Shown here piece after piece: positions 17,366 through 62,058 of a stretch of DNA of 64,000 nt. The DNA is from Sulfurovum sp. (lineage in GTDB: Bacteria; Campylobacterota; Campylobacteria; Campylobacterales; Sulfurovaceae), in contig JALTVI010000024.1 in the NCBI GenBank assembly GCA_027049035.1, positions 1 to 64,000 of the forward strand, in the 5' to 3' direction. The translations under genes and the position numbers were made by a program. Below the pieces are notes generated by a model. The model ran no database searches. It was not told the origin of the DNA and worked only from the letters and a program-made list of their open reading frames with translations. How positions within the stretch are numbered: the stretch's first letter is position 1; the number at the start of each line of letters is the position of its first letter.

Positions 17366-17440
17366 TGGCTCCGGATGCTGGATTCGAACCAGCGACCAAA
17401 TGATTAACAGTCATCTACTCTACCACTGAGCTAATCCGGA
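17366..17440 (-). tRNA. tRNA-Asn (GTT), copy 1
   Basis: Read on the minus strand it begins TCCGGAT and ends ATCCGGA plus G and an encoded CCA. The anticodon loop CTGTTAA gives anticodon GTT (Asn). The D-loop AGCTCAGTGGTAGAG and T-arm GCTGG-TTCGAAT-CCAGC are canonical. The gene is 75 bases long and pairs with a second tRNA-Asn 32 bases away. Confidence 0.95.
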
Positions 17441-17472
17441 ACAGAGAAAAAAGTTTCACAAAAACAAGGAAG

Positions 17473-17547
17473 TGGCTCCGGCACCAGGATTCGAACCTGG
17501 GACCAAATGATTAACAGTCATCTACTCTACCGCTGAGCTATGCCGGA
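17473..17547 (-). tRNA. tRNA-Asn (GTT), copy 2
   Basis: On the minus strand it begins TCCGGCA and ends TGCCGGA, G, CCA. The anticodon arm is the same as copy 1, with anticodon GTT. The acceptor stem (TCCGGCA/TGCCGGA) and T stem (CCAGG/CCTGG) differ from copy 1 by compensated changes, so both genes look functional. It is the upstream member of the pair and probably the first in a shared precursor. Confidence 0.95.
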
Positions 17548-44206: not shown

Positions 44207-45838
44207 TTAAAAGAAGAGCAGTTGAATGATGTTAAGGATGAACATTGTAATGAACCCGACTTTGTAGACCATCATCTCATTACGCTCAATAAATGAGGTG
44301 TGCCGGTCAAAATAGGGCTGTACCTTGTCGGGATTGTCGATTTCATAGAGCATCTCGGAGTAGTTGTGGTAGCGCTTGTCTGGATCGGTCTCGATGGCAC
44401 GCAGAATGACACTCTCAAGCCAGTGAGGAATCTTCGGATTGAGCCTGCTTGGATGTTTGGGATCCTTTTCAAAACTCGGAGTCTGAAACGGTTCTATCTC
44501 TCCAAACGGAAACTTCTGTGTCAATGCCTCATAGAGTGTCACCCCTATGGCATAGATCTCCGTCTGCTCGGTAATGGGTGCCTGCTTGAAACGCTCCGGC
44601 GCAAGGTATGAGGGTGTCCCGGCACGCGTTACGGTAGAGTAGGCTTCGGTGATGCTGCCAAAGTCGACCATTTTGAAGACAATCTTCTCCTTTCGTTTCG
44701 TAACGATGATGTTTTCGGGTTTGATATCGCCGTGTACCAGGTTCAGTCTGATAAGATACTGTGACATCTTCAGCAGAAAGTGTGCCAGCTCCACCCCAAG
44801 GTCGACACTCAGCGGCTTTTTGGCGATATACTCCTTAAGGGATACTCCCTCGATATAGCGCATGATGTAGTAGCGATGCGTCCTTTTTCTGGGGATGACC
44901 GCCTTTGGGAAAAAACCGGCCTTCAGCCGGTTTGCCATCCATACCTCTTTGACGAAGAGATCGAGCATCACCTCATCCTCGATCGCTTCAGGAGGCGCAA
45001 ACTTGATGACATACTGCACCCCTTTCTTTTCACACAGCCAGGTTCTGTTGTTCTGTATCAGCGGTTTGATAAGCCTGTAGCCGTCTATCTCTTCACCCTT
45101 TTTGTACTGCTCCTGAATGATCAGATCCGTCTGTTTCAACTTCAATCTCGGGTCGAGTTCTTTGATCTCAATAACCACAGCAGTGGTATCGTCAGGCAGG
45201 TCATCATTGTGCTTCTTGCTTGCCTTCTTGACCAGAAACGAGGCACCCACCTTGATGCCTTCGGCAAGCTCTTCAGGGCTGAGTTCGTTATAGAGCCCGT
45301 CACTGCAGAGCAGAATGCGGTCTCCTGCCTGCAGGTTGTTCTCGAAGTAGTAGGGTTCTACGCTCTCCTCAAGTCCTATGGCAGCGGTAAGCACATTCTC
45401 CATCCCCTCCTCATCCATCGCATGGTCGGAGGAGAGCTGTGCAAGCTGTCCGTTACGTGAGAGATAGATGCGGCTGTCACCCACATTGGCGCCATAGAGC
45501 CTGTCCCCTTCGATGACCACCAGCGTCAGTGTCGTCACCAGCTCCTGGCGCTCATACTGCTCCATAGACTCAAGATAGAGCACACGGTTTATGTTTTCGA
45601 TGAAGTGGCGAATGGACTTCTCCATACTCCAGCTTCGCGGACGGTTCTTCAGTGACTGTACCAGAAACTGTGCAGTGCGTTTTGCCGCCTCGGCCCCATG
45701 TATCGAAGAGCCAACCCCGTCACAGACAACAGCAACGGTAATGTTCTCCATCACCTTGACTTCGAAATAGTCATCGCCTTTAAGCTGTGTACCTTTAGCC
45801 AGCGTAAAGCCGCTGGTTTCAATATTCTCTTTGGACAT
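44207..45838 (-). CDS. PP2C phosphatase - Ser/Thr kinase fusion
   Basis: A 543-residue two-domain protein. The PP2C part (about 1-225) has VVCDGVG (Asp40), GANVGDSRIYL (Asp121), LLCSDGLYNEL (Asp180) and LPDDTTAVV. The kinase part (about 250-505) has YVIKF (Lys279), VHGDIKPEN (Asp371; HGD instead of HRD), VDFGS (392-394) and APERF. A C-terminal membrane helix (525-543) anchors it. Homologous fusions occur beside nitrate assimilation genes in other Proteobacteria, and here nasA, nirA and the nitrate reductase follow. It may adjust nitrate uptake or reduction after translation. Confidence 0.9.
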   Translation of the reverse strand: MSKENIETSGFTLAKGTQLKGDDYFEVKVMENITVAVVCDGVGSSIHGAEAAKRTAQFLVQSLKNRPRSWSMEKSIRHFIENINRVLYLESMEQYERQELVTTLTLVVIEGDRLYGANVGDSRIYLSRNGQLAQLSSDHAMDEEGMENVLTAAIGLEESVEPYYFENNLQAGDRILLCSDGLYNELSPEELAEGIKVGASFLVKKASKKHNDDLPDDTTAVVIEIKELDPRLKLKQTDLIIQEQYKKGEEIDGYRLIKPLIQNNRTWLCEKKGVQYVIKFAPPEAIEDEVMLDLFVKEVWMANRLKAGFFPKAVIPRKRTHRYYIMRYIEGVSLKEYIAKKPLSVDLGVELAHFLLKMSQYLIRLNLVHGDIKPENIIVTKRKEKIVFKMVDFGSITEAYSTVTRAGTPSYLAPERFKQAPITEQTEIYAIGVTLYEALTQKFPFGEIEPFQTPSFEKDPKHPSRLNPKIPHWLESVILRAIETDPDKRYHNYSEMLYEIDNPDKVQPYFDRHTSFIERNEMMVYKVGFITMFILNIIQLLFF

Positions 45839-46433: not shown

Positions 46434-47714
46434 TTAGATGATTCCACCTGCATTGGCACCCCATGTGGTTCTCCAGCGTGTCTTAACAAGTGAGATGGCA
46501 CCGATGGCAATGAGTACAAGCCCTGCAAAGATGAAGAAACCGACACTATAGCTGTCAAACGTTCCTTTCGCCCAGCCAAGTGTCTTGACAAGGAACGTAC
46601 CGCCGATACCGCCGGCTGCACCGATAAGCCCTGTCATGATACCGATATCTTTACCGAAACGCTGCGGTACGAGCTGGAAGACCGCACCGTTGGCCATACC
46701 GAGGTTAGCCATAATCAGGAAAAGTACACCGATGGCGACCCAGAACGGAAGATGAACCGCACCGCTGAGTGCTACCAGTGCTGCAACGACACCAAAGAAG
46801 ATGTAAAGTGCCTTGACACCACCCATCTTGTCTGCAATCCCCCCACCTACAGGACGCAGTACCGCACCGGCAAAGATGGTAAGGGCACCAAAATAACCGG
46901 CAATGACCTTGACATTCGGCTCATTGAAAACATCCAGTCCGAAGGCACTCATATCTGCCTGATAGGTATTCATCAGGTAGACCTTCATATAGTTTGCAAA
47001 TCCTACGAAACCACCAAAGCTGACAGCGTAGAAGAGCATAAACCACCAGCTGTCACGGTCTTTGAGCAGTTTCCAGTAGTCTCCAAGCTTCTTTGGACGC
47101 GGCTTGTAGACAGATTCGGGTGCATCTTTTGCCAGAATGATATAGGTAATGAGAACAATGAACGAAAGCAGCCCGCCAACCAGGAAGACCGCTTCCCAGC
47201 CCCACTTCTCCGCGATTTTCGGAGCGAAGAGGAAGTCGATGACCACACCGATGTTACCCGCCCCGGCAATACCCAGCACGATCCCCTGCAGCTTTGGCGG
47301 ATACCACTGTCCAGCCTGTGGCAGCGCCACAGCAAACGATGCTCCGGCAAAACCAAGGCCAAGGGCCACAACCAGTAATTCATTATAGGTAATACTCTCT
47401 CCCCTTGAGTAGGCATAGAAGAGTGACGCGATAACGATAATCTGTGCGATAATAGCCGTTTTCTTCGGTCCTATCTTGTCTACCCCGAACCCAAGTACGA
47501 TACGCAGCAGCGCACCTGCCAAAATAGGAATTGAGAGCAGTGTCGCGATCTGCCCTGAAGTCAGTGCTGCACCGTGTGCGGTGAGTGATTCGTTTATCTC
47601 CGTCGCCAGTGGCCCCAGCATCGTCCATACCATAAAACTGAAATCAAAGTAAAGGAAAGCAGCAAAGAGTGTCTTTGCATCGCCTTGTCCCTTGAGTGCC
47701 TTGAAGCTTGCCAT
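46434..47714 (-). CDS. nasA: Nitrate/nitrite MFS transporter (NarK/NasA family)
   Basis: A 426-residue transporter with 12 membrane helices. Hallmarks are FSFMVWTMLGPLATEI at the start, RIVLGFGVDKIGPKK, the nitrate signature GLGFAGASFAVALPQAGQWYPPKLQGIVLGIAGAGNIG, and the second nitrate motif around GTDIGIMTGLIGAAGGIGG-type KDIGIMTGLIGAAGGIGG. It imports nitrate for the reductase and NirA encoded divergently. Two copies of a 17-bp palindrome lie in the shared promoter region, one 41 bases upstream of its TATAAT. Confidence 0.92.
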   Translation of the reverse strand: MASFKALKGQGDAKTLFAAFLYFDFSFMVWTMLGPLATEINESLTAHGAALTSGQIATLLSIPILAGALLRIVLGFGVDKIGPKKTAIIAQIIVIASLFYAYSRGESITYNELLVVALGLGFAGASFAVALPQAGQWYPPKLQGIVLGIAGAGNIGVVIDFLFAPKIAEKWGWEAVFLVGGLLSFIVLITYIILAKDAPESVYKPRPKKLGDYWKLLKDRDSWWFMLFYAVSFGGFVGFANYMKVYLMNTYQADMSAFGLDVFNEPNVKVIAGYFGALTIFAGAVLRPVGGGIADKMGGVKALYIFFGVVAALVALSGAVHLPFWVAIGVLFLIMANLGMANGAVFQLVPQRFGKDIGIMTGLIGAAGGIGGTFLVKTLGWAKGTFDSYSVGFFIFAGLVLIAIGAISLVKTRWRTTWGANAGGII

Positions 47715-47780: not shown

Positions 47781-47797
47781 TGATTAATTTTTAAGCA
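47781..47797. promoter_or_regulatory. Nitrogen-regulon palindrome, nasA-proximal site
   Basis: TGATTA-ATTTT-TAAGCA: one mismatch to the palindrome TGATTA-N5-TAATCA that occurs five times in this window, always before nitrogen genes. Its position relative to the nasA -10 box suggests an activator site near -52. Confidence 0.65.
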
Positions 47798-47858: not shown

Positions 47859-47875
47859 TGATTATTTTTTAATCA
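47859..47875. promoter_or_regulatory. Nitrogen-regulon palindrome, nirA-proximal site
   Basis: TGATTA-TTTTT-TAATCA: a perfect palindrome, identical in reverse complement to the amt-1 site at 58467-58483. Its centre lies 42 bases upstream of the first base of the nirA -10 box. Confidence 0.75.
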
Positions 47876-47908: not shown

Positions 47909-47914
47909 TATAAT
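47909..47914 (+). promoter_or_regulatory. -10 box of nirA
   Basis: TATAAT in CGCTATAATAAGCC, 35 bases before the nirA ATG (47950). CAGGAGCG supplies the ribosome-binding site. Confidence 0.65.
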
Positions 47915-47949: not shown

Positions 47950-49869
47950 ATGGAAGCATTGGCAAAGGCGTTTGAAGCCAGAAGCAAAAAGGTCAACAAG
48001 GTTGAGACTACCAAGGCACTGAAAGACCCTATGGAGGTTTACGAGCGTCTTGAGGAGATCGCAGCGGCAGGCTACGAGGGTCTGAACAAAGAGGACTCCG
48101 CCTACTTTCTGAAGTGTTTCGGACTCTTCGACAAGGGTGAGGACTTTATGCTGCGTGTGCGTATTCCCGGCGGGCAGCTGACCAACGCACAGGCGGTCCG
48201 CATCGGTGAAGTGGCGAAGGAGTATGGTAACGACTACATCGACATTACCACTCGTATGCAGGTGGAGCTGCGCTATCTGCAGATTGCCGACATCGCAAAG
48301 GTTCTTAAAGCACTCAAGGAGGTAGGCATCTCCACTTTCCAGACCGGTGTGGACAACCCGCGTAACATTGTTACCGACCCGCTTGACGGTATCGCCTACG
48401 ACAATATCATCGAAACGATGCCGATCTTGACGCAGCTTCAGGAGATCTTCCTTGAAAAGCCTGAATGGATCTCTGCGCTGCCAAGAAAATTCAATACCGG
48501 TATTTTGGGTAGTCTGAGCAATTCCTGTAACATCTTCGGACACGACTGCAACTTCGTGCTTGCAAATAAAGACGGCAACTTCGGCTTCAACGTCTATCTG
48601 GGCGCCCGTGTCGGCGTGCAGGCGCGTGATGCCAATCTCTTCGTCACACCTGAAGAGGTTCCGGCATTCTTCAAAGCCCTGCTGAGTGTCTTCAAAACCT
48701 ACGGCTACCGCGACAATCGCAACAAGAACCGTCTGCACTTCCTGCTGCAGGATGTGGGCATTCCTGCATTCATCGAAGCGGTCAAAGAAGAGGCAGGGAT
48801 GCCATTTGCCTCAGGCGGTATGACGCTGGTACAGTCACAAAACATCGCACTGGGTGCCAACCGTGTACTGCTCAAAAACGGCACCTATGCCTACAAGGTC
48901 ATCGTCCCCTCCGGTATCTTCAGCGGGACGAACATGATTGCGGCGGCCAATGCGGCACAAACTTACGGCAGCGGCGACATCCGTCTCAGCTACGACCAGA
49001 ATCTCTACATTATCAATATTGACAAAGAGAAGCTTGAAGCCTTTGAGAACGATGAACTCATCGCCAAGTATGCGCAGTACAACAACCTCTATTTTCAGGA
49101 CATGATCGCCTGTGCCGGGACACAAACCTGCAGCTACGGTGTCATCCCCAACAAACCCGACGCCATAGAGATGGCACATTTCCTCAACTCCGAAGTGCCC
49201 ATTGCCAACGCCAATGTACGGATGAACTGGTCTGCCTGCCCCAAAGGGTGCGGGGTACACGGCATAGCCGACATCGGTTTTGAGGGGTGCAAGGCAAAAG
49301 ATGCCGACGGCAACCGTGTGGACGGGGTACACCTCTTTATGGGCGGAAAGATCACCCGCGAAGCCAAAGAGGCGCACATCCTGCACAAAGCGCTGCCTAT
49401 TGACGAAGCCAAACACCACGTCAAGTACCTGCTGAAAACCTACGCGGCATACAAAGAGCGCGGCGAGACATTCGAGCATTTCGAGACACGCTTTTTCAGC
49501 AAGAACTACAGCTACCAGGCGATAGGCTTCTTTACCAAGATAAACTACATCCTCCGCGACAAGCTGGGGCTGGATGTGATGTTCGAGCTTGACGAAGAAC
49601 CCAAAAGCGGACGCCGCGAAGAGTATGAACTCTTCACCTTCGGACTGAAACTCTTTAAACTCCTGACTGGAGAGAAGCGTTTCGAAGCAGTTACCGGACT
49701 CGCCCCCACCCTTGCACGCCCAAGAAAGATAGCACGCGATGAAGTGACCAAACTCAACCCGAAAGTCCCGCCAAAACTCTCTGAAGTCATCTACAATATG
49801 ACGCATGAAAACAAGAGTGAGCGCGCACAGGTGTTCTCTGAGCTGCTGGTGGCGCTTAAAGAGGTGTAA
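47950..49869 (+). CDS. nirA: Ferredoxin-dependent nitrite reductase with a C-terminal kinase-lobe-like extension
   Basis: A 639-residue siroheme/[4Fe-4S] enzyme that reduces nitrite to ammonium in the cytoplasm. Two ferrodoxin-like halves are seen (LRVRIPGGQLTNAQAVRIGE, TTRMQVELRYLQI). The cluster and siroheme ligands are Cys388 and Cys394 (CAGTQTC) and Cys430 and Cys434 (CPKGC). The usual NirA length is about 510-560. Here residues about 516-639 form an extra region whose last 83 residues (557-639) resemble subdomains IX-XI of Ser/Thr kinases: ELFTFGLKLFKLLTG, then LNPKVPPKLSEVIYNM, then SELLVALKEV. It is divergent from nasA under shared operators. Confidence 0.9.
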   Translation: MEALAKAFEARSKKVNKVETTKALKDPMEVYERLEEIAAAGYEGLNKEDSAYFLKCFGLFDKGEDFMLRVRIPGGQLTNAQAVRIGEVAKEYGNDYIDITTRMQVELRYLQIADIAKVLKALKEVGISTFQTGVDNPRNIVTDPLDGIAYDNIIETMPILTQLQEIFLEKPEWISALPRKFNTGILGSLSNSCNIFGHDCNFVLANKDGNFGFNVYLGARVGVQARDANLFVTPEEVPAFFKALLSVFKTYGYRDNRNKNRLHFLLQDVGIPAFIEAVKEEAGMPFASGGMTLVQSQNIALGANRVLLKNGTYAYKVIVPSGIFSGTNMIAAANAAQTYGSGDIRLSYDQNLYIINIDKEKLEAFENDELIAKYAQYNNLYFQDMIACAGTQTCSYGVIPNKPDAIEMAHFLNSEVPIANANVRMNWSACPKGCGVHGIADIGFEGCKAKDADGNRVDGVHLFMGGKITREAKEAHILHKALPIDEAKHHVKYLLKTYAAYKERGETFEHFETRFFSKNYSYQAIGFFTKINYILRDKLGLDVMFELDEEPKSGRREEYELFTFGLKLFKLLTGEKRFEAVTGLAPTLARPRKIARDEVTKLNPKVPPKLSEVIYNMTHENKSERAQVFSELLVALKEV

Positions 49870-51876: not shown

Positions 51877-52003
51877 GTCACAGATGCACGCTTTGTGCAG
51901 GTACGCAGTCGCCCATATGTGCGAAGCACGGCGACGGAGCTACCGTCCGCACAATTGCATCTGTGACGCTTTTTTTGCCTACTTTTTTTCTAAAAAAAAG
52001 TAG
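51877..52003 (+). repeat. Structured intergenic element, family A copy 3
   Basis: Outer stem GTCACAGATGCA (51877-51888) with TGCATCTGTGAC (51956-51967). The conserved 24-base bulged hairpin is at 51910-51933. The inner stem here is GGTA with TACC, in place of GATGC with GCATC in the other copies. A second hairpin with CTAC, T7/A8 and GTAG lies at 51979-52003. It lies between the membrane fusion gene and the nitrate reductase gene, on their strand. Confidence 0.88.
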
Positions 52004-52043
52004 AAAATCCCGCTTTAATCCAGATGGGAACAAGGAATACAAT

Positions 52044-54365
52044 ATGAATCTCATAGACAAAGCAAAAAACTTTCTCGGCTTCGACATCAAAGAGGACAAA
52101 TACGCCCTCGTCGACGACCCCATCTTCGGCAAGGTCGCCAAAGCCAAAGCTCCCGACAAGTGGGTACGAAGCACCTGCGGCTACTGCGGTGTGGGGTGCG
52201 GTATGTACATTGGCGTTAAAAACGGTGAGGCAGTCTACTCCAAAGGCGATCCCCTTCATCCGGTCAATATGGGTACACTCTGCCCCAAAGGATTGAGCGA
52301 ACACAAAATGGTACGTGCAGATAGCCGTGTGCGCACACCGCTGATCAAAAAGAACGGCTCTCTCCAACCTGCATCTTGGGATGATGCCTTTACGCATACT
52401 GCCAATGAGTTCAAACGCATTCAAAAAGAGCATGGCAAAGGCGCAGTCGCGGTGATCTCTACAGGGCAGCTTCTGACAGAAGAGTTCTATATGCTCGGAA
52501 AGTTCGTACAGCTTGGGCTTGAAACCAACAACTACGACGGCAACACCACGCTCTGCATGGCAAGTGCCGTGATGGGCTACAAGCAGACTTTCGGAAGCGA
52601 CGGTCCGGTAGGCTGCTACGAAGACTTTGAAAAGGCCGATGTGATCATGCTCATCGGTGCCAACATTGCCGACAACCACCCTATCTTGAAACTGCATATC
52701 GCCAAAAACCAGAAAAGCACCGGCAAGAAGCCGACCATTATCGTCATCGACCCCAGAAAGTCCAAAACCTCACAGATGGCAGACATCTTCGTACCCCTCA
52801 AACCACGCTCTGATCTGGCACTCATCAACGGGCTGTGCTACATCATCATGGAGCAGGGCTGGGAGGATGAGAAATTCATCAATGAACGCACCAACGGCTA
52901 CAGGAAGTTCAGAAAGCACATTATGGAGAACTACCCTCCACAGGAGGTTGCCAACATTACCGGTATCGATGTCAAGACACTCTATGAGCTTGCCCGCGTC
53001 TATGCCGGCGCCGATGCTGCCATGAGTGCCTGGACGATGGGGGTCAACCAAAGCTCGATTGGTACCGATACCGTCTCTGCCATCTGCAACCTTGCCCTCA
53101 TCACCGGTAACCTCGGCAAAGAGGGTGCCGCACCCATGTCCATCACCGGACAGTGCAATGCCATGGGTACGCGTGAGTTTGGTTTTACCTCATCCATCCC
53201 CGGCTACCGCAACTACGCCAGCGAAAGTGACAGAAGAGAATTCGCCGAAATCATCGGCGTACCAGAAGACCTCATTCCCACTGCACGCGGCTATGCCTAC
53301 CCACAGATCATCGATGCGATCAACCGCGGCGAGATCAAAGCACTATGGGTAGTCGCCACCAATCCCCTGGTAAGCTACCCCGACCAGAACGGGCTTAGAG
53401 AAGCACTTAAAAAACTTGACCTCCTTGTAGTGCAGGATGCCTTTATGTCCGATACAGCCGTGAAGGCCGATGTGGTCTTTGCCGCAGCGACCTGGAGTGA
53501 AAAGGAGGGGTGCTACACCAACTCCGAGCGCCGCTGCAACTATGCCAAAAAGGCCATTGAGCCACTTGAGCAGAGCAAGGCAGACTTCTACATCGTTAAG
53601 GAGTTCTCCAAATATTTCGGCGACAAACACGACCTGCTCTTCAAAAACCTCAACACCCCGCGTGACGCGTTTGAGGAGATCAAACGCGTCAGCAAAGGCA
53701 GACTCTGCGACTACAGTGGTATGAGTTACGAACTCATCGAAGCGCTTGGCGGCATCCAGTGGCCGTGCAACGAAAAAGCGCCCAAAGGCACCAAGCGCCT
53801 CTACTCCGAAGATATGCCCTGCCCTACCCCTGACGGCAAGGCACAGCTGCTGCCGGTCGACTGGAAGCCGCTGAGTGAAATGCAGTGCAAGGAGCTGCCG
53901 GTGATGCTCAACACCGGACGTACCGTAGAGCAGTTCCATACCCGTACCAAGACCGGTACCATCGGCATTCTCGATGCACTGGCTCCTGAAGCCTGGATCG
54001 ACATCAACTCCAAAGATGCCGCCAAACTCAAGGTCAAAAGCGGAGACCGTATCGCTATCTCAGGCAGTCGCGGACGTGTGGAGGATGTTATCGTCAAAGT
54101 GAGCGAAACCGTACGCGAGGGCAATATCTTCGTACCGTTCCACTTCAACGAGCAGCTCATCAATGCCGTTACCATCCCCGAGTTCGACCCCAAATCCTTC
54201 GAGCCAAACTACAAGCAGTGTGCGGTGCAGCTGCACTCCGAAGCGGTACCGGAGGGTATCGTATACGAAGAGCTTGAGATAAGCGGCTACCTTGAGAATG
54301 TCAAAGTCTATACAGAGGAAGAGACAGCGCAAAACGATATGGCAACGGCAGAGGCGCAAAAATAG
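52044..54365 (+). CDS. Molybdopterin nitrate reductase, assimilatory (NasC/NapA-like)
   Basis: A 773-residue member of the DMSO reductase family. The N-terminal [4Fe-4S] ligands are Cys45, Cys48, Cys52 and Cys80 (STCGYCGVGCGM, TLCPKG). The Mo ligand is probably Cys171 in TTLCMASAVMGYKQTFG. NTGRTVEQFHTRTKTGT is the usual C-terminal Moco motif. No Tat signal is present, so it is cytoplasmic, as expected for assimilation. It lacks the [2Fe-2S] tail of some NasC/NasA enzymes. ATG 52044 is chosen for AAGGAAT and the normal start. The neighbours supply the substrate (NasA), electrons (DmsBC-like fusion) and the next step (NirA). Confidence 0.85.
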   Translation: MNLIDKAKNFLGFDIKEDKYALVDDPIFGKVAKAKAPDKWVRSTCGYCGVGCGMYIGVKNGEAVYSKGDPLHPVNMGTLCPKGLSEHKMVRADSRVRTPLIKKNGSLQPASWDDAFTHTANEFKRIQKEHGKGAVAVISTGQLLTEEFYMLGKFVQLGLETNNYDGNTTLCMASAVMGYKQTFGSDGPVGCYEDFEKADVIMLIGANIADNHPILKLHIAKNQKSTGKKPTIIVIDPRKSKTSQMADIFVPLKPRSDLALINGLCYIIMEQGWEDEKFINERTNGYRKFRKHIMENYPPQEVANITGIDVKTLYELARVYAGADAAMSAWTMGVNQSSIGTDTVSAICNLALITGNLGKEGAAPMSITGQCNAMGTREFGFTSSIPGYRNYASESDRREFAEIIGVPEDLIPTARGYAYPQIIDAINRGEIKALWVVATNPLVSYPDQNGLREALKKLDLLVVQDAFMSDTAVKADVVFAAATWSEKEGCYTNSERRCNYAKKAIEPLEQSKADFYIVKEFSKYFGDKHDLLFKNLNTPRDAFEEIKRVSKGRLCDYSGMSYELIEALGGIQWPCNEKAPKGTKRLYSEDMPCPTPDGKAQLLPVDWKPLSEMQCKELPVMLNTGRTVEQFHTRTKTGTIGILDALAPEAWIDINSKDAAKLKVKSGDRIAISGSRGRVEDVIVKVSETVREGNIFVPFHFNEQLINAVTIPEFDPKSFEPNYKQCAVQLHSEAVPEGIVYEELEISGYLENVKVYTEEETAQNDMATAEAQK

Positions 54366-56038: not shown

Positions 56039-56974
56039 CTATCCACACAACCGCTTCAAATCATTCAGATCAAACAGCAAAAGATTCTCACTTCGCATTC
56101 CCAGCAGTTCATTGGAAAATCCGTCCTTGGAGAAGAGTGCATAGATGTCGGCGCGAATGCCCGACTGCTCCGCTTTGGCTTTGAGTTTGTTCAATTCATT
56201 TTTGCACACTTTCCGGTCTTTGTACTTGCACTCTCCAAGTATCACTTTTTTGTCAGCACTAACAGCAAGAATATCGAATTCACTATGTCGGTTCCAGTAG
56301 CTTCCATGCGTGAGCAGCGGCGTGGTTTGGCGAAAGTGCTCGACAAGCAGTGCATCACAGAGCTGCTCGAATACCAGCGTACGAAGCCGCTCATAATGAT
56401 TTTCGAAGTTGGCAAGAAAGGCATCCGCTTTCCCCTGAGAGAGTGCCGATCTGTAGGGAGAGACAAATCCGAACCAAAAACGCAAAAAAGGGTGTTCGAA
56501 CCGCAGCTTGTCCTGGATACGGTAACTGCGCAACTCCTTTTTGAGTTTGTGCTTGGGATGGCGTTTGAGTGGCTGTTCCCGGCTCACCTCGATATATAGT
56601 ACACCGAGGTCAACCAGTTGCGTGACAATACGTTCTCCGGCCTCTTCACTGAGCTTCGCTTTTCTCAGTGCCGAATGGTATTTACCATCCCCTCTAGCCA
56701 CAGCCTGAAGCAGATCACAGTAAGGAGTTTCAAGCAGGTATGAAGGAGAAAGGAGCTTCTGCGCCTGGGGGAAATTTTCAACAAACCTGGAGACAACCAG
56801 CGCTGTGATTGTCTCAAAAAAATCAAGCTCAACAGCTGCATCGGCACCGCCAAAAACGGAAAAGTACTCAATGGCACTCTCCAGCGGAAGATAGGGGTGG
56901 TTCTGACAAAACGCTTTGAATGCCTCTTTGATGGCGCTGCTTCCTTGTTCTTTTATTTCTGTATAGTTTAACAT
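56039..56974 (-). CDS. DUF234-type nuclease-like protein without the ATPase domain
   Basis: A 311-residue protein resembling the C-terminal half of archaeal/bacterial ATPases with DUF234. A winged-helix region (residues about 85-145) and LRFEHPFLRFWFGFVSPYRS precede a restriction-enzyme-like core with a possible PD-(D/E)XK triad: EFDILAV and VILGECKYKDRKVCKNEL. The N-terminal P-loop ATPase usually fused to this part is missing, replaced by about 80 residues without a P-loop. It may be an orphan fragment or a standalone DNA-binding protein. It is divergent from the NtrC-like gene, with 72 bases between. Confidence 0.65.
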   Translation of the reverse strand: MLNYTEIKEQGSSAIKEAFKAFCQNHPYLPLESAIEYFSVFGGADAAVELDFFETITALVVSRFVENFPQAQKLLSPSYLLETPYCDLLQAVARGDGKYHSALRKAKLSEEAGERIVTQLVDLGVLYIEVSREQPLKRHPKHKLKKELRSYRIQDKLRFEHPFLRFWFGFVSPYRSALSQGKADAFLANFENHYERLRTLVFEQLCDALLVEHFRQTTPLLTHGSYWNRHSEFDILAVSADKKVILGECKYKDRKVCKNELNKLKAKAEQSGIRADIYALFSKDGFSNELLGMRSENLLLFDLNDLKRLCG

Positions 56975-56982
56975 AAGTTTGA

Positions 56983-56988
56983 TATAAT
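56983..56988 (+). promoter_or_regulatory. -10 box of the NtrC-like regulator gene
   Basis: TATAAT in GATATAATGC. The operator at 57004-57020 begins 16 bases downstream of the box, close to the predicted transcription start. That placement would suit repression of the regulator by itself. Confidence 0.5.
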
Positions 56989-57003: not shown

Positions 57004-57020
57004 TGCTTATTTTTTAATCA
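57004..57020. promoter_or_regulatory. Nitrogen-regulon palindrome before the regulator gene
   Basis: TGCTTA-TTTTT-TAATCA: one mismatch to the consensus. It carries the same variant half-site (TGCTTA) as the nasA-proximal site read on the other strand. It lies just downstream of the -10 box and 26 bases before the ATG. Confidence 0.65.
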
Positions 57021-57046: not shown

Positions 57047-57781
57047 ATGGAAACATTTTATACAGAATCACCGCAAGTGCAGCAGATCATCCAGGGACTC
57101 AATCTCACGAGAACACTCTTTGTCTCCTCCATCATCATAGGAGAGCCCCATACCGGGAAGAAGACTCTGGTGACACATCTCTTTCCGGATATCCCTGTTG
57201 TTTCAGGTGAGAGTCAGGAAGAGGTTGAAATCCTGCTTGAGCAGTCGGATGAGCTGATCATTACCGACTTTGAAAAACTCAGCAACAAAGAGGGGCTTCT
57301 CTTTGACAACAAGCGCATCATCGCTACAGCAAACTATGTGGGCAATCAAAAGATCATCGATTCACTTTTTGCTTTCATCTATATGATGCCCTCCTATAAA
57401 GAACGGCCTGAAGATCTTAAAACGATGAAAACCCACTTTCTTGAAGAAGCAGCGGCAACACTGATGCTTGATGCATCACTCTATTCACTTGATCAGCTGC
57501 CCACCGATCTGACACACAACAGTAAAAGTCTCAAGCGCGCTATCTACCACTACCTGATGCGCCACAGTATGAGCACTGAAGAGATAGAAGAGACGCTGCA
57601 CACCTACTTTCTCGAATATCTCGAAGGCAACAACGGCTACAAGGAGCATATCGGCATGTATGAACGTCCCCTGATCAAAGCCGGACTGGAGAAGTACGGT
57701 TCGCAGCTGAAGCTCTCCGAAGTACTCGGTATCAACCGCAATACGCTGAGGAAAAAGATCCATGAACACAACATCGATTGA
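57047..57781 (+). CDS. Degenerate NtrC-like regulator with Fis-type DNA-binding domain
   Basis: A 244-residue protein built like a shrunken sigma54 activator. It shows a Walker A-like IGEPHTGKKTL (31-41), a Walker B-like LIITDFE (70-76), sensor-like RIIATANYV (90-98), YMMPSYKERPEDLKTM (112-127, LPPLRERxEDI type) and a C-terminal Fis helix-turn-helix YGSQLKLSEVLGINRNTLRK. It lacks a receiver domain and the GAFTGA loop, and only about 30 residues separate Walker A from Walker B. It is therefore unlikely to drive sigma54 open-complex formation. It overlaps the PAS gene by 20 bases and precedes two amt-PII pairs. Confidence 0.75.
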   Translation: METFYTESPQVQQIIQGLNLTRTLFVSSIIIGEPHTGKKTLVTHLFPDIPVVSGESQEEVEILLEQSDELIITDFEKLSNKEGLLFDNKRIIATANYVGNQKIIDSLFAFIYMMPSYKERPEDLKTMKTHFLEEAAATLMLDASLYSLDQLPTDLTHNSKSLKRAIYHYLMRHSMSTEEIEETLHTYFLEYLEGNNGYKEHIGMYERPLIKAGLEKYGSQLKLSEVLGINRNTLRKKIHEHNID

Positions 57782-58463
57782 TTTTCGCCCTTTTGTAGAG
57801 TGGGACAACAACCCATTCATACTCTTTGACCCAAAAGGAAAAATACTCTATCTCAACAACAGCGCGGAGATCCTGCTGGGATATGTTTCAAAAAAAGAGC
57901 TTTTCGACCTCGCACTTGCTTACGCCCCTCAGAGTTTCGGCTATAAAACGACAAGCCTTTCCCTTCGTTACGAAGCGTTTAACTTCTACTCCATCACGGT
58001 GGGATACGAAAATGAAGAGCAGCTTGCCATCCGATTCTACAATGCCCCAAGGCTCAGAAATCACATCCCTGTTGAAAAGGAGAAACTCACCCTGACCGAC
58101 ATCAATCTGCTACTCGAGGCCAATATCGCTCTGTTTAAAACCAAAAACAGCAATCCACTGCAACTCCTTACCGACCCGGACATGCCGCAGCTGAAAATCG
58201 ACCAGAACCGCTTTTCAAAACTGCTTCGCAAAGTCCTCGAGTCGTTCCGCGCATCCGACTCCATACGTATCGAGCTCAAACTGCTTGTCGGGGAACACGT
58301 CATTATCGACGATCAGAAGATATCCATCGCACAACTCTCCACCATGGCAAACGGACGGTATGTCGACAATGACAAGGAGATCAAGACACTCTCAGAGGAG
58401 TGTAATATCCGCAGCAACCTTCAGGAGTCCTCCATTAAACTCGAAATCCCGCTTATTACATAG
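57762..58463 (+). CDS. PAS protein with a remnant histidine-kinase domain (NtrB-like partner)
   Basis: A 233-residue soluble protein. Residues about 10-100 form a PAS domain (NPFILFDPKGKILYLNNSAEILLGY). Residues about 110-233 resemble a worn-down GHKL ATPase: DQNRFSKLLRKVLESFR is where an N-box would be, and the end IKLEIPLIT matches the last strand of such domains. There is no phosphoacceptor His motif, no N-box Asn and no G-box. It is translationally coupled to the NtrC-like gene, so the pair resembles NtrB/NtrC without phosphotransfer. It may act as a sensor by binding. Confidence 0.65.
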   Translation: MNTTSIDFRPFVEWDNNPFILFDPKGKILYLNNSAEILLGYVSKKELFDLALAYAPQSFGYKTTSLSLRYEAFNFYSITVGYENEEQLAIRFYNAPRLRNHIPVEKEKLTLTDINLLLEANIALFKTKNSNPLQLLTDPDMPQLKIDQNRFSKLLRKVLESFRASDSIRIELKLLVGEHVIIDDQKISIAQLSTMANGRYVDNDKEIKTLSEECNIRSNLQESSIKLEIPLIT

Positions 58464-58466
58464 GAT

Positions 58467-58483
58467 TGATTAAAAAATAATCA
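58467..58483. promoter_or_regulatory. Nitrogen-regulon palindrome before amt-1
   Basis: TGATTA-AAAAA-TAATCA, a perfect palindrome and the exact reverse complement of the nirA-proximal site. Its centre lies 41 bases upstream of the amt-1 -10 box. Confidence 0.75.
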
Positions 58484-58515
58484 CTTCTCTTCTCATTTTT
58501 TCCTTTGTCGCGTGG

Positions 58516-58521
58516 TATGAT
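58516..58521 (+). promoter_or_regulatory. -10 box of amt-1
   Basis: TATGAT in GGTATGATAAGCC, 35 bases before the ATG. The following bases AAGCC match those after the nirA -10 box, hinting at a related promoter. Confidence 0.6.
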
Positions 58522-58556: not shown

Positions 58557-59864
58557 ATGAAGTTAAAACTTTTCGCTCTACTGGCAGCACTGATGCCAAT
58601 TGCCGCTTTTTCGGCAGACAAACTCGACTCGGGTGACACGGCGTGGATGATGATCTCAACCGCGCTCGTGCTCCTTATGACACCTGCAGGTCTGGCACTC
58701 TTCTATGCCGGTATGACACGAAGCAAGAATGCACTCAACACCTACGCAATGGTGATGGGGGCATTCGTTCTGGCATTCGTTGTATGGATCGTTGCAGGAT
58801 ACTCGCTCGCATTCGGAACAGCAGGAAGTGAGTTCGTCCAGAAGTTCATCGGAGGATTCGGGAACGTTCTTCTGAGTGAAACAAAGTGGACAGACCTCAG
58901 CGGCAGCTACCCAACATACGTCTTCGTAGCGTTCCAGGGTACATTTGCAGCTATCACTGTAGCGATCGCATCCGGTTCTGTCATCGGTCGTATGAAATTC
59001 TCCACCTGGATGGTCATTGTGGCACTCTGGGGCCTTGTTGTCTATGCACCGATTACCCACATGGTATGGGGCGGTGACGGCGCACTTCTCTTTGATGCGG
59101 GTGCACTTGACTTTGCCGGTGGTACCGTTGTACATATGAACGGTGGTCTTGCAGGCCTGGTGCTTGCTATTCTGGTTGGCAAGAGAGCCGGTTACCCTAA
59201 AACTGCTATGAAACCATTCAGTATCATCCTTACAGCTGCAGGTGCTGCACTTCTGTGGTTTGGCTGGTACGGTTTCAACGGCGGTTCTGCATTCGGTGCG
59301 AACGCTATTGCCGGTCTTGCAGTGCTGACAACCACAGTTGCAACTGCTGCTGCAGGTGTTACCTGGCTGCTGCTTGAGTGGGTTGTATACAAAAAACCTA
59401 CCCTGCTCGGCATTGCTTCGGGTATCATTGCCGGTCTTGTCGCCATTACACCTGCTGCCGGTTTCGTCTCTGTAGGCGGATCTTTTGTTGTCGGTATCGG
59501 CGGTGCACTCATCGCATTCTTCGGTGTTGTCACACTCAAGAAGAAACTTGGCTACGACGACTCTCTCGATGCGTTCGGTATCCACTTCCTTGCAGGTCTC
59601 TGGGGTGCACTGGCAACAGGTCTGCTTGCACTTAACGACAAAGAGCTGCTCTGGGACGGACCGATGAAAGAGAGCGGAGACAGAATGGGACAGTTCATGG
59701 TTCAGGTTGAATCTGTTGTCGTTGTCGGTCTCTGGACACTTATCGGTACTGTCATCGTTTACTTCATTGCAAGCGCGCTTACAGGCGGTGCAAGAGTAAC
59801 AGCTGAAAATGAAGAGATCGGTCTTGACGAGTCCGTACACGGTGAGAGAGGAATGAACCTTTAA
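58557..59864 (+). CDS. amt: Ammonium transporter, copy 1 (with signal peptide)
   Basis: A 435-residue Amt channel with a cleavable signal peptide (LFALLAALMPIAAFSA), as in many bacterial AmtB proteins, then 11 membrane helices. GLALFYAGMTRSKNALN, FAGGTVVHMNGGLAGLVLA (first pore His) and AFGIHFLAGLWGALATG (second pore His) are present. It conducts ammonium/ammonia at the inner membrane. A PII gene follows after 37 bases, the classical amt-glnK pair, and a PII trimer probably plugs it under nitrogen excess. Confidence 0.95.
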   Translation: MKLKLFALLAALMPIAAFSADKLDSGDTAWMMISTALVLLMTPAGLALFYAGMTRSKNALNTYAMVMGAFVLAFVVWIVAGYSLAFGTAGSEFVQKFIGGFGNVLLSETKWTDLSGSYPTYVFVAFQGTFAAITVAIASGSVIGRMKFSTWMVIVALWGLVVYAPITHMVWGGDGALLFDAGALDFAGGTVVHMNGGLAGLVLAILVGKRAGYPKTAMKPFSIILTAAGAALLWFGWYGFNGGSAFGANAIAGLAVLTTTVATAAAGVTWLLLEWVVYKKPTLLGIASGIIAGLVAITPAAGFVSVGGSFVVGIGGALIAFFGVVTLKKKLGYDDSLDAFGIHFLAGLWGALATGLLALNDKELLWDGPMKESGDRMGQFMVQVESVVVVGLWTLIGTVIVYFIASALTGGARVTAENEEIGLDESVHGERGMNL

Positions 59865-59877
59865 GGTTCGTCCCTGA

Positions 59878-60243
<366 letters not shown>

Positions 60244-60339: not shown

Positions 60340-60356
60340 TGATTAATTATTAGTCA
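60340..60356. promoter_or_regulatory. Nitrogen-regulon palindrome before amt-2
   Basis: TGATTA-ATTAT-TAGTCA: one mismatch to the consensus. A weak -10 match (TAAGAT, 60388) lies 40 bases from its centre. A further candidate TATTAT is at 60399. Apart from this site, the gap 60244-60523 is AT-rich and shows no gene. Confidence 0.6.
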
Positions 60357-60523
60357 ATAAAAACACTCTAAAAAAAATTTTATGCAATAAGATGATGATA
60401 TTATTGGCACTTGCCCCATTTTATAACCATAAAAATCCTGTTACACTTATAACGCGCTAATCACAAACAGAAAACATGTACGCTCTTCCTTTTAGGATAC
60501 AGCATACTTACGGAGGTTATTTT

Positions 60524-61696
60524 ATGGAAATGCACTATGTCATTGACACATTCTTTTCGCTCTTTGCCATGACGCTGATCATCTTGATGGTACCCGGATT
60601 TGCCATGCTCGAAGCAGGTCTTGTACGTACCAAAAACGTTACATCGGTACTCACGGTCAATGTGATGATCTATGCAGTGGCTTCATTGGCTTTTCTGCTT
60701 ATAGGCTATACCTATGCCTTTGGAAGCTGGGATCATCAAGATAGCATCAACAAATATGCTTTCTTTCTCTTTCAAATGGCGTTTGTCGGGAAAGTAGTCA
60801 ACATTATGAGCGGCGGTGTCAGTGAACGCTCACGTATCATTCCGCTTGTGCTTTTCACCATTATTGTCGGAGCCTTTCTCTATCCGACCATCGTCAATAT
60901 CACCTGGGGTGCCAACTTCCTCTCCGGAACAATGTTTGACATCTCCGGCATGCACGACCTTGCCGGATCGACGGTCATCCACTCCACAGGCGGATGGGCG
61001 CTGCTTGCTGCGATTCTTATCATGGGTCCAAGACGCGGACGCTTCAAGGAAAACGGTGCCATTCAGGTCATTCCCGCTTCCAACATTCCACTTGTCGTGC
61101 TTGGTGCATTTCTGCTCTGGATCGGCTGGTTCGGTTTCAATGGCGGCTCTGTTGGGGCCATCTCTACCAAAGAGAGTGCCGATGCCGTTTCATTGACCAT
61201 TATGAATACAAACACTGCAGGACTTGCAGGAGCAATTGTGGGATGGCTTATGACCTATATACGCTATAAAAAGTTTGATGTCACCATGATCCTTAACGGT
61301 GCACTTGGCGGACTGGTAGCCATTACTGCAGGTCCTGATCTCTATGACATCCATACACCTATTCTAATCGGTGCCATTGGTGGTGCTTTGGTTGTTCTCT
61401 TTGTTCCATTCTTTGACAAACTGAAGATGGACGATCCTGTCGGAGCACTCTCGGTTCACTTGGTCAACGGTATCTGGGGTACACTGGCGGTAGGTATCTT
61501 CACAGACGTCAGCTTCCTGACGCAGCTTAAAGGGGTGGTTATGGTTGCTGCTATTGTTTTTCCACTCTCTTTTGTTATAATTTACAGTATCAACAAGATC
61601 TTTACGCTGCGTGCCGGTGACGATGAACAGCTTGAAGGTATCGATGCCATCGAGTGCGGTATCGAAGCCTATCCCGAATTTAAACGCAGTATCTAA
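60524..61696 (+). CDS. amt: Ammonium transporter, copy 2 (no signal peptide)
   Basis: A 390-residue Amt channel that lacks a signal peptide and starts directly with helix 1 (DTFFSLFAMTLIILMVPGFAMLEAGLV). The first pore His is in STVIHSTGGWALLAA and the second in GALSVHLVNGIWG. MGPRRGRFKENG follows helix 5. It is clearly divergent from copy 1, so it is not a recent duplicate. ATG 60524 is preferred, with GGAGG just before it; ATG 60530 is an alternative. The upstream frame is open to 60476. It is followed by a second PII gene after 20 bases. Confidence 0.93.
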   Translation: MEMHYVIDTFFSLFAMTLIILMVPGFAMLEAGLVRTKNVTSVLTVNVMIYAVASLAFLLIGYTYAFGSWDHQDSINKYAFFLFQMAFVGKVVNIMSGGVSERSRIIPLVLFTIIVGAFLYPTIVNITWGANFLSGTMFDISGMHDLAGSTVIHSTGGWALLAAILIMGPRRGRFKENGAIQVIPASNIPLVVLGAFLLWIGWFGFNGGSVGAISTKESADAVSLTIMNTNTAGLAGAIVGWLMTYIRYKKFDVTMILNGALGGLVAITAGPDLYDIHTPILIGAIGGALVVLFVPFFDKLKMDDPVGALSVHLVNGIWGTLAVGIFTDVSFLTQLKGVVMVAAIVFPLSFVIIYSINKIFTLRAGDDEQLEGIDAIECGIEAYPEFKRSI

Positions 61697-61704
61697 CCTA
61701 ATAA

Positions 61705-62058
<354 letters not shown>

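Follow-up and report, generated by a model that had tools for sequence, protein, structure and literature searches.

A predicted nitrogen regulator pair derived from NtrC and NtrB in Campylobacterales, lacking the motifs of phosphotransfer and sigma54 activation

Can a pair of genes that look like ntrC and ntrB, but have lost the motifs for phosphotransfer and for sigma54 activation, still serve as a nitrogen switch? Two such genes, here called A and B, lie in a stretch of 64,000 nucleotides from Sulfurovum sp. (contig JALTVI010000024.1), which we refer to as the window. The original prediction described two open reading frames overlapping by 20 bases ahead of two amt-PII pairs. Both frames are found in the ORF list at the coordinates given, the overlap is exactly 20 bases (57762-57781), and the amt and PII genes are what they were taken to be. 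The A-B pair is flanked by an assimilatory nitrate reduction cluster on one side, which also encodes an Fe-S/DmsC-like subunit, and by the two amt-PII pairs on the other (Table 1). We propose, with a probability of roughly 0.6, that A and B descend, in reduced form and without phosphotransfer, from an NtrC/NtrB pair and act as a transcriptional nitrogen switch of Campylobacterales.

Table 1. Coordinates of the genes and of the predicted regulatory elements in the window
Feature	Position	Strand	Description
gene A	57047..57781	+	244 aa; NtrC-type AAA+ that lacks receiver and L1/GAFTGA but keeps Walker A; Fis-type HTH; regulator predicted to bind DNA
gene B	57762..58463	+	233 aa; PAS and degenerate NtrB-type GHKL, lacking DHp/phospho-acceptor His and the N-, G1- and G2-boxes; predicted to partner A without catalysis
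extended -10 TGATATAAT of A-B operon	56980..56988	+	predicted, sigma70 type; conserved in alignment
operator TGCTTATTTTTTAATCA	57004..57020	.	before A, downstream of A's -10; predicted self-repression
operator TGATTAAAAAATAATCA	58467..58483	.	before amt1, perfect palindrome; predicted activation
extended -10 TGGTATGAT of amt1	58513..58521	+	predicted; 43.5 bp from operator center
amt1, ammonium transporter	58557..59864	+	PF00909; predicted target
PII, first copy	59902..60243	+	PF00543; candidate signal input
operator TGATTAATTATTAGTCA	60340..60356	.	before amt2, one mismatch
amt2, ammonium transporter	60476..61696	+	PF00909; predicted target
PII, second copy	61717..62058	+	ORF; sequence near-identical to first PII copy
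narK-like MFS transporter	46434..47714	-	PF07690; predicted target
operator TGATTAATTTTTAAGCA	47781..47797	.	before narK (minus-strand gene)
operator TGATTATTTTTTAATCA	47859..47875	.	before nirA
nirA-like nitrite reductase	47950..49869	+	PF01077/PF03460; predicted target
nasA-like molybdopterin nitrate reductase	51963..54365	+	PF00384; probably part of nir-nas operon

Several features of the surrounding sequence deserve mention. The listed start of amt2 is probably wrong, an ATG at 60524 with a good ribosome-binding site upstream being more likely. A gene for a DUF234 protein (56039-56974, minus strand) is transcribed away from A and is conserved in this position in the window's family; its product may be an ATPase-type protein that is truncated and ends in a nuclease-like part. 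A fused PP2C phosphatase and Ser/Thr protein kinase (44207-45838, minus strand) adjoins the narK-nir genes, and two adjacent tRNA genes (17369-17547, minus strand) are the only Rfam matches in the window.

Folds and missing motifs of A and B

A begins at the AAA+ domain, the receiver with its phospho-acceptor Asp being absent. Profile-profile comparison with hhalign aligned A over its whole length with residues 140-469 of E. coli NtrC, that is, outside the receiver (E 3e-14), and all 24 members of a diverse A alignment matched the NtrC model. The Fis-type domains HTH_8 and HTH_50 scored above their cut-offs, while A itself reached 36 bits against a curated NtrC cut-off of 558.6, far below it. 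A profile search of the PDB with A matched NtrC1, NtrC4, FleQ and ZraR. The match to NtrC1 is split into a Walker A half and a half from sensor I to the lid, and A lacks about 49 residues between these. The top PDB match, adenylate kinase 9, was set aside as four weak P-loop pieces. The best structural matches of the AlphaFold model of A (pLDDT 92) were all NtrC-family AAA+ domains, namely FlrC (Z 14.8), NtrC4 (14.7) and NtrC1 (14.6), which count as tied since they lie no more than 1 Z unit apart. These matches had an rmsd of 2.6-2.9 over 170-174 residues and placed A residues 1-174 on about 234 target residues.

Across 144 aligned A sequences, GAFTGA occurs in none and the Walker B motif is mostly [D/N][F/I/L][E/D], never DE. 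The Walker-A Lys is kept in 139 and R120 in 135, and HTH residues N230, R231 and T233 are invariant. Because the full Walker A is kept, nucleotide binding by A has probably been retained. The picture drawn beforehand of A, with Walker motifs, a sensor and a Fis-type HTH, no receiver and no room for GAFTGA, agrees with the NtrC profile, the predicted fold and the motif count; structure prediction gave an NtrC-family AAA+ fold with L1 missing, and no unrelated fold was seen.

The model of B (pLDDT 88) is PAS-like in its first half, an assignment that rests on the secondary structure of the model and on weak sequence matches in 15 of 24 relatives. Residues 109-233 best match the NtrB catalytic domain 1r62 (Z 15.2, rmsd 2.7, 121 of 136 residues), with RetS and ThkA tied. 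Sequence evidence that NtrB, rather than another kinase, was the source of this GHKL part is weak: four of 24 B relatives weakly match the NtrB model NF008293 (best E 2e-4), and the B profile aligned with the single E. coli NtrB sequence at E 0.015 in hhalign. Weak matches of B to initiation factor 5A were taken as chance. Among 111 B sequences we found none of the HExxN/T, DNGxG or GxGLGL motifs, no conserved His column and no DHp phospho-acceptor His. The description of B as a PAS domain with a worn GHKL domain lacking the phosphoacceptor His, N-box and G-box stands on the match to 1r62 and this count, and its predicted fold is of the NtrB catalytic type, not an unrelated one. The retained GHKL fold could mean that B is still a signaling ATPase or a kinase for another response regulator, working through an active site that escapes recognition, but with the phospho-acceptor helix pair and the N-, G1- and G2-boxes missing from all 111 sequences this is very improbable.

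Fold and profile matches to both families also uphold the proposed NtrC/NtrB ancestry of the pair, and the proposed loss of phosphotransfer and of the sigma54 loop fits the disappearance of the motifs from the 144 A and 111 B sequences. As A and B fall short of what defines NtrC and NtrB, we class them as derived from these families and not as members of them.

The genomic setting points the same way. No protein above the curated NtrC cut-off is found in the 190 genomes of the order, so the canonical NtrC that might have controlled these promoters from elsewhere in the genome did not turn up. Neither the window's genome nor the four others of the same genus in the set have rpoN, and several further groups with A and B also lack it. 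Given no rpoN in the window's genome and no canonical NtrC in the 190, A cannot act via sigma54 here. Sigma54 activation by another enhancer-binding protein was likewise rejected, PF00158 matches being weak and partial (best 33.8 bits) and rpoN absent. The genome paper on A. butzleri describes that organism as being without RpoN and NtrC/NtrB (PMC2147049), in line with the lack of A and B from the genus in the present set.

A conserved operator and its distance from the -10 element

A, amt1 and amt2 are each preceded by the 17-bp palindrome TGATTA-N5-TAATCA, which also occurs in the interval between narK and nirA. A shared palindrome beside the pair had been reported from the sequence, and it is real: TGMTTA-N5-TAAKCA has four exact matches in the window against 0.02 expected. 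Seven sites in the whole genome have at most one mismatch to TGATTA-N5-TAATCA, and five of them are in this cluster. The other two, C20:85409 before a GatB/YqeY-like gene and C69:101995 inside or beside a MazF-like/MscS-like pair, look like chance. The genome-wide scan found no operator at glnA in the window's genome. Nearly every genome of the genus has the operator upstream of both A, at about 30-44 bp, and amt, at about 85-90 bp. Its confinement to the nitrogen cluster and its conservation before amt lend support to the nitrogen role first suggested for the pair.

Presence of the operator also follows presence of the genes. It precedes amt in 15 of 20 genomes in which A/B lie far from amt (no recognizable site was found before the tested amt in the other five), as opposed to 0 of 17 amt loci where the genome has no A/B (Fisher p 3e-6, the chance of a site being 1.2-1.4% at each locus), a contrast inflated by relatedness because the loci without A/B come from few families. 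The recognition helix varies with the operator as well. The helix NRNTLRKK pairs with the TGATTA operator in 45 loci, whereas NR[I/V/T]TLRKK and NRATLTxK pair with TGTATA-N5-TATACA; exceptions are the f15 group (NRVTLTKK), which keeps TGATTA, and the single loci L052 and L100. With only 3 and 4 changes on the tree, too few for significance, this co-variation is suggestive only. In one genome of the window's family (G102, locus L105), A groups with that of a distant family (L060) and the operator is of the TGTATA type, which suggests horizontal transfer of the pair.

On these comparisons it is highly likely that A binds the 17-bp site, and it would do so through its Fis-type HTH. It would probably be DNA-bound in a nucleotide-bound form, given that Walker A, sensor I and R120 are kept while L1/GAFTGA and the Walker-B Glu are gone. 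Alternatively, another regulator could bind the palindrome and A could be a Fis-like protein with a different role, for example around cpoB-slyD-fabD, its place at amt being secondary. In several families A does lie within a slyD-fabD operon with no site before it. We consider this explanation quite unlikely, as the site precedes A itself in A-B layouts and is missing before amt where A/B are absent. Its 17-bp TGn-N11-nCA geometry is also that of Fis/NtrC-type HTHs, and it varies along with A's recognition helix.

How binding by A may be read out is indicated by the promoters. In aligned amt regions the operator is followed by an extended -10 (TGnTATnAT) at a fixed distance. An extended -10 occurs within 60 bp in 39 of 63 distinct amt operators, and 38 hits fall at spacings of 42.5 or 43.5 bp, where about 0.002 would be expected for each position and promoter. 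Read by eye, TATAAT lies 44.5 bp from the operator at nirA (47909-47914) and, on the minus strand, 43.5 bp from the operator at narK (47748-47743). At the A promoter two arrangements occur, one sub-group having the operator downstream of the extended -10 and another having the two overlap. From this geometry we infer activation of amt/nas and self-repression of A-B. Sigma70 promoters, as the original prediction proposed, are predicted at the targets on the grounds of the conserved extended -10, its fixed spacing from the operator and the absence of rpoN. Bound at amt and nas/nir, with a sigma70 -10 lying 42.5-44.5 bp downstream, A would be an activator of the housekeeping polymerase. Its own promoter has the site downstream of or over the -10, and there A would repress itself. 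We regard this dual action as likely.

Joint inheritance of A and B across the order

The distribution of A and B was counted by hand from profile results in 190 genomes of Campylobacterales. Strong matches to A are present in 140 genomes and to B in 138; 136 have both, 48 have neither and six have one only, these six being draft assemblies of 90-320 contigs. Both genes are single-copy across the order. Named relatives with A/B include Sulfurovum, Sulfurimonas, Sulfuricurvum, Sulfurospirillum, Hydrogenimonas and Arcobacter records, and the genes are jointly absent from groups f10, f13 and f23 and genus g8 of f8, which look like Campylobacter-, Helicobacter- and Aliarcobacter-type groups. Outside Campylobacterota, the nearest matches to A fall from E 1e-37 to 1e-14 and are partial, to NtrC-like proteins. 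The pair was first seen as a local one; it is actually order-wide (about 140 genomes), and its members often reside in two separate housekeeping operons. Of the phylogenetic profile of the pair against amt, the mutual co-occurrence of A and B held up, while the match to amt is partial: of the 190 genomes, 160 have PII and 158 have amt, the two also occurring without A/B, so that the pair tracks them only in part.

Three layouts recur. A and B form an operon, often with amt-PII, and with nir-nas in one lineage (L061) or nasA in another (L092); A is divergent from amt-PII, with B behind rpoD; or A lies in cpoB-slyD-A-fabD, with B directly behind rpoD. In some lineages A without B adjoins amt-PII. 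In many families B follows directly on rpoD, which encodes the primary sigma factor, and often the two overlap or are a few bases apart (L069-L072 and L075-L088, e.g. L072:2951-5475).

That the two genes are kept or lost jointly though split between two unrelated housekeeping operons is the strongest argument for their working together. Their divergence is also correlated, with r 0.79 between A and B distances in 17 unlinked genomes and a partial r of 0.58 given rpoD (Mantel p 5e-4). From co-occurrence and the shared operon, it seems fairly probable that B acts on A. B would be incapable of autophosphorylation and of ATP binding, and the most likely role of its PAS and GHKL folds would be to gate A through direct contact, in the manner of NifL and NifA. 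B may also be the point where PII reports nitrogen status, and the gene neighborhood makes PII a possible input, at somewhat less than even odds. A different division of labor can be imagined, in which A, bound to the operator, would control the nitrogen genes by itself or together with a nucleotide or small ligand, and B would be a separate PAS adaptor on RNA polymerase/RpoD or PII, with no action on A. The position of B directly behind rpoD in many families, with A elsewhere, would suit such an adaptor. It is nevertheless unlikely, since gains and losses of A and B coincide, many lineages have the two in a single operon with overlapping frames, and their divergence is correlated beyond what rpoD accounts for.

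Both genes are under strong purifying selection, judging by dN/dS among near relatives of 0.04-0.09 for A and 0.015-0.018 for B, rough values with dS near saturation. The missing catalytic motifs could be taken to mark A/B as a decaying remnant, a notion that these ratios and the order-wide retention of the pair make scarcely credible. Returning to a working switch, it is tempting to speculate further that nitrogen control runs across the order without phosphotransfer, ATP hydrolysis or sigma54, and that B, which lies behind rpoD in many lineages, uses A to link the housekeeping polymerase to a signal from PAS or PII; we offer this broader scheme only tentatively.

Precedents and biological meaning

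NifL-NifA of Azotobacter and Klebsiella resembles A/B in combining a PAS-GHKL protein with an NtrC-type AAA+ activator, in dispensing with phosphotransfer and in its nitrogen role. The C-terminal part of Klebsiella NifL is without nucleotide-binding features yet binds NifA, with GlnK input (PMC9866876). By analogy, NifL would be the best precedent for B acting without catalysis, although NifL has two PAS domains and an H-domain, and NifA, unlike A with its predicted sigma70 promoters, has retained the sigma54 loop and includes a GAF domain.

For A, the NtrC of Rhodobacter capsulatus and Caulobacter is instructive, as it lacks GAFTGA and regulates sigma70 promoters in nitrogen assimilation (PMC10274813). 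These proteins differ from A/B in that the receiver and a working NtrB kinase are kept and phosphorylation matters, and in that far more has been deleted from A. TyrR, HupR, DhaR and VpsR are AAA+/Fis-type, sigma70-type paralogues of enhancer-binding proteins that have lost sigma54 contact (PMC3162934), but they have other sensory domains or receivers, other targets and no degenerate NtrB partner. Together, GAFTGA-less NtrC at sigma70 promoters and the TyrR-type paralogues would be the best precedent for A. A/B appear to combine losses seen separately in NifL and in the GAFTGA-less NtrC/TyrR-type proteins, and to drop phosphotransfer.

E. coli NtrC/NtrB shares with A/B domain ancestry, adjacent genes and the link to amt-PII. 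The E. coli NtrC site is also of 17 bp, with two 6-bp arms and a 5-bp spacer, the same geometry as the A/B operator. A/B differ in having no receiver, phosphotransfer or sigma54, and in the operator TGATTA-N5-TAATCA.

No earlier description of the A/B pair was found in the literature searched, where nitrogen assimilation control in free-living Campylobacterota, sulfur oxidizers such as Sulfurovum, Sulfurimonas and Sulfurospirillum, also appears undescribed. The 190-genome comparison predicts that A/B control nitrogen genes in most free-living Campylobacterota, giving these bacteria a predicted regulator, partner, operator, promoter architecture and regulon. In a broader context, A/B would be a case of a two-component pair turning into a kinase-free switch, and of a nitrogen regulator persisting in lineages without sigma54.
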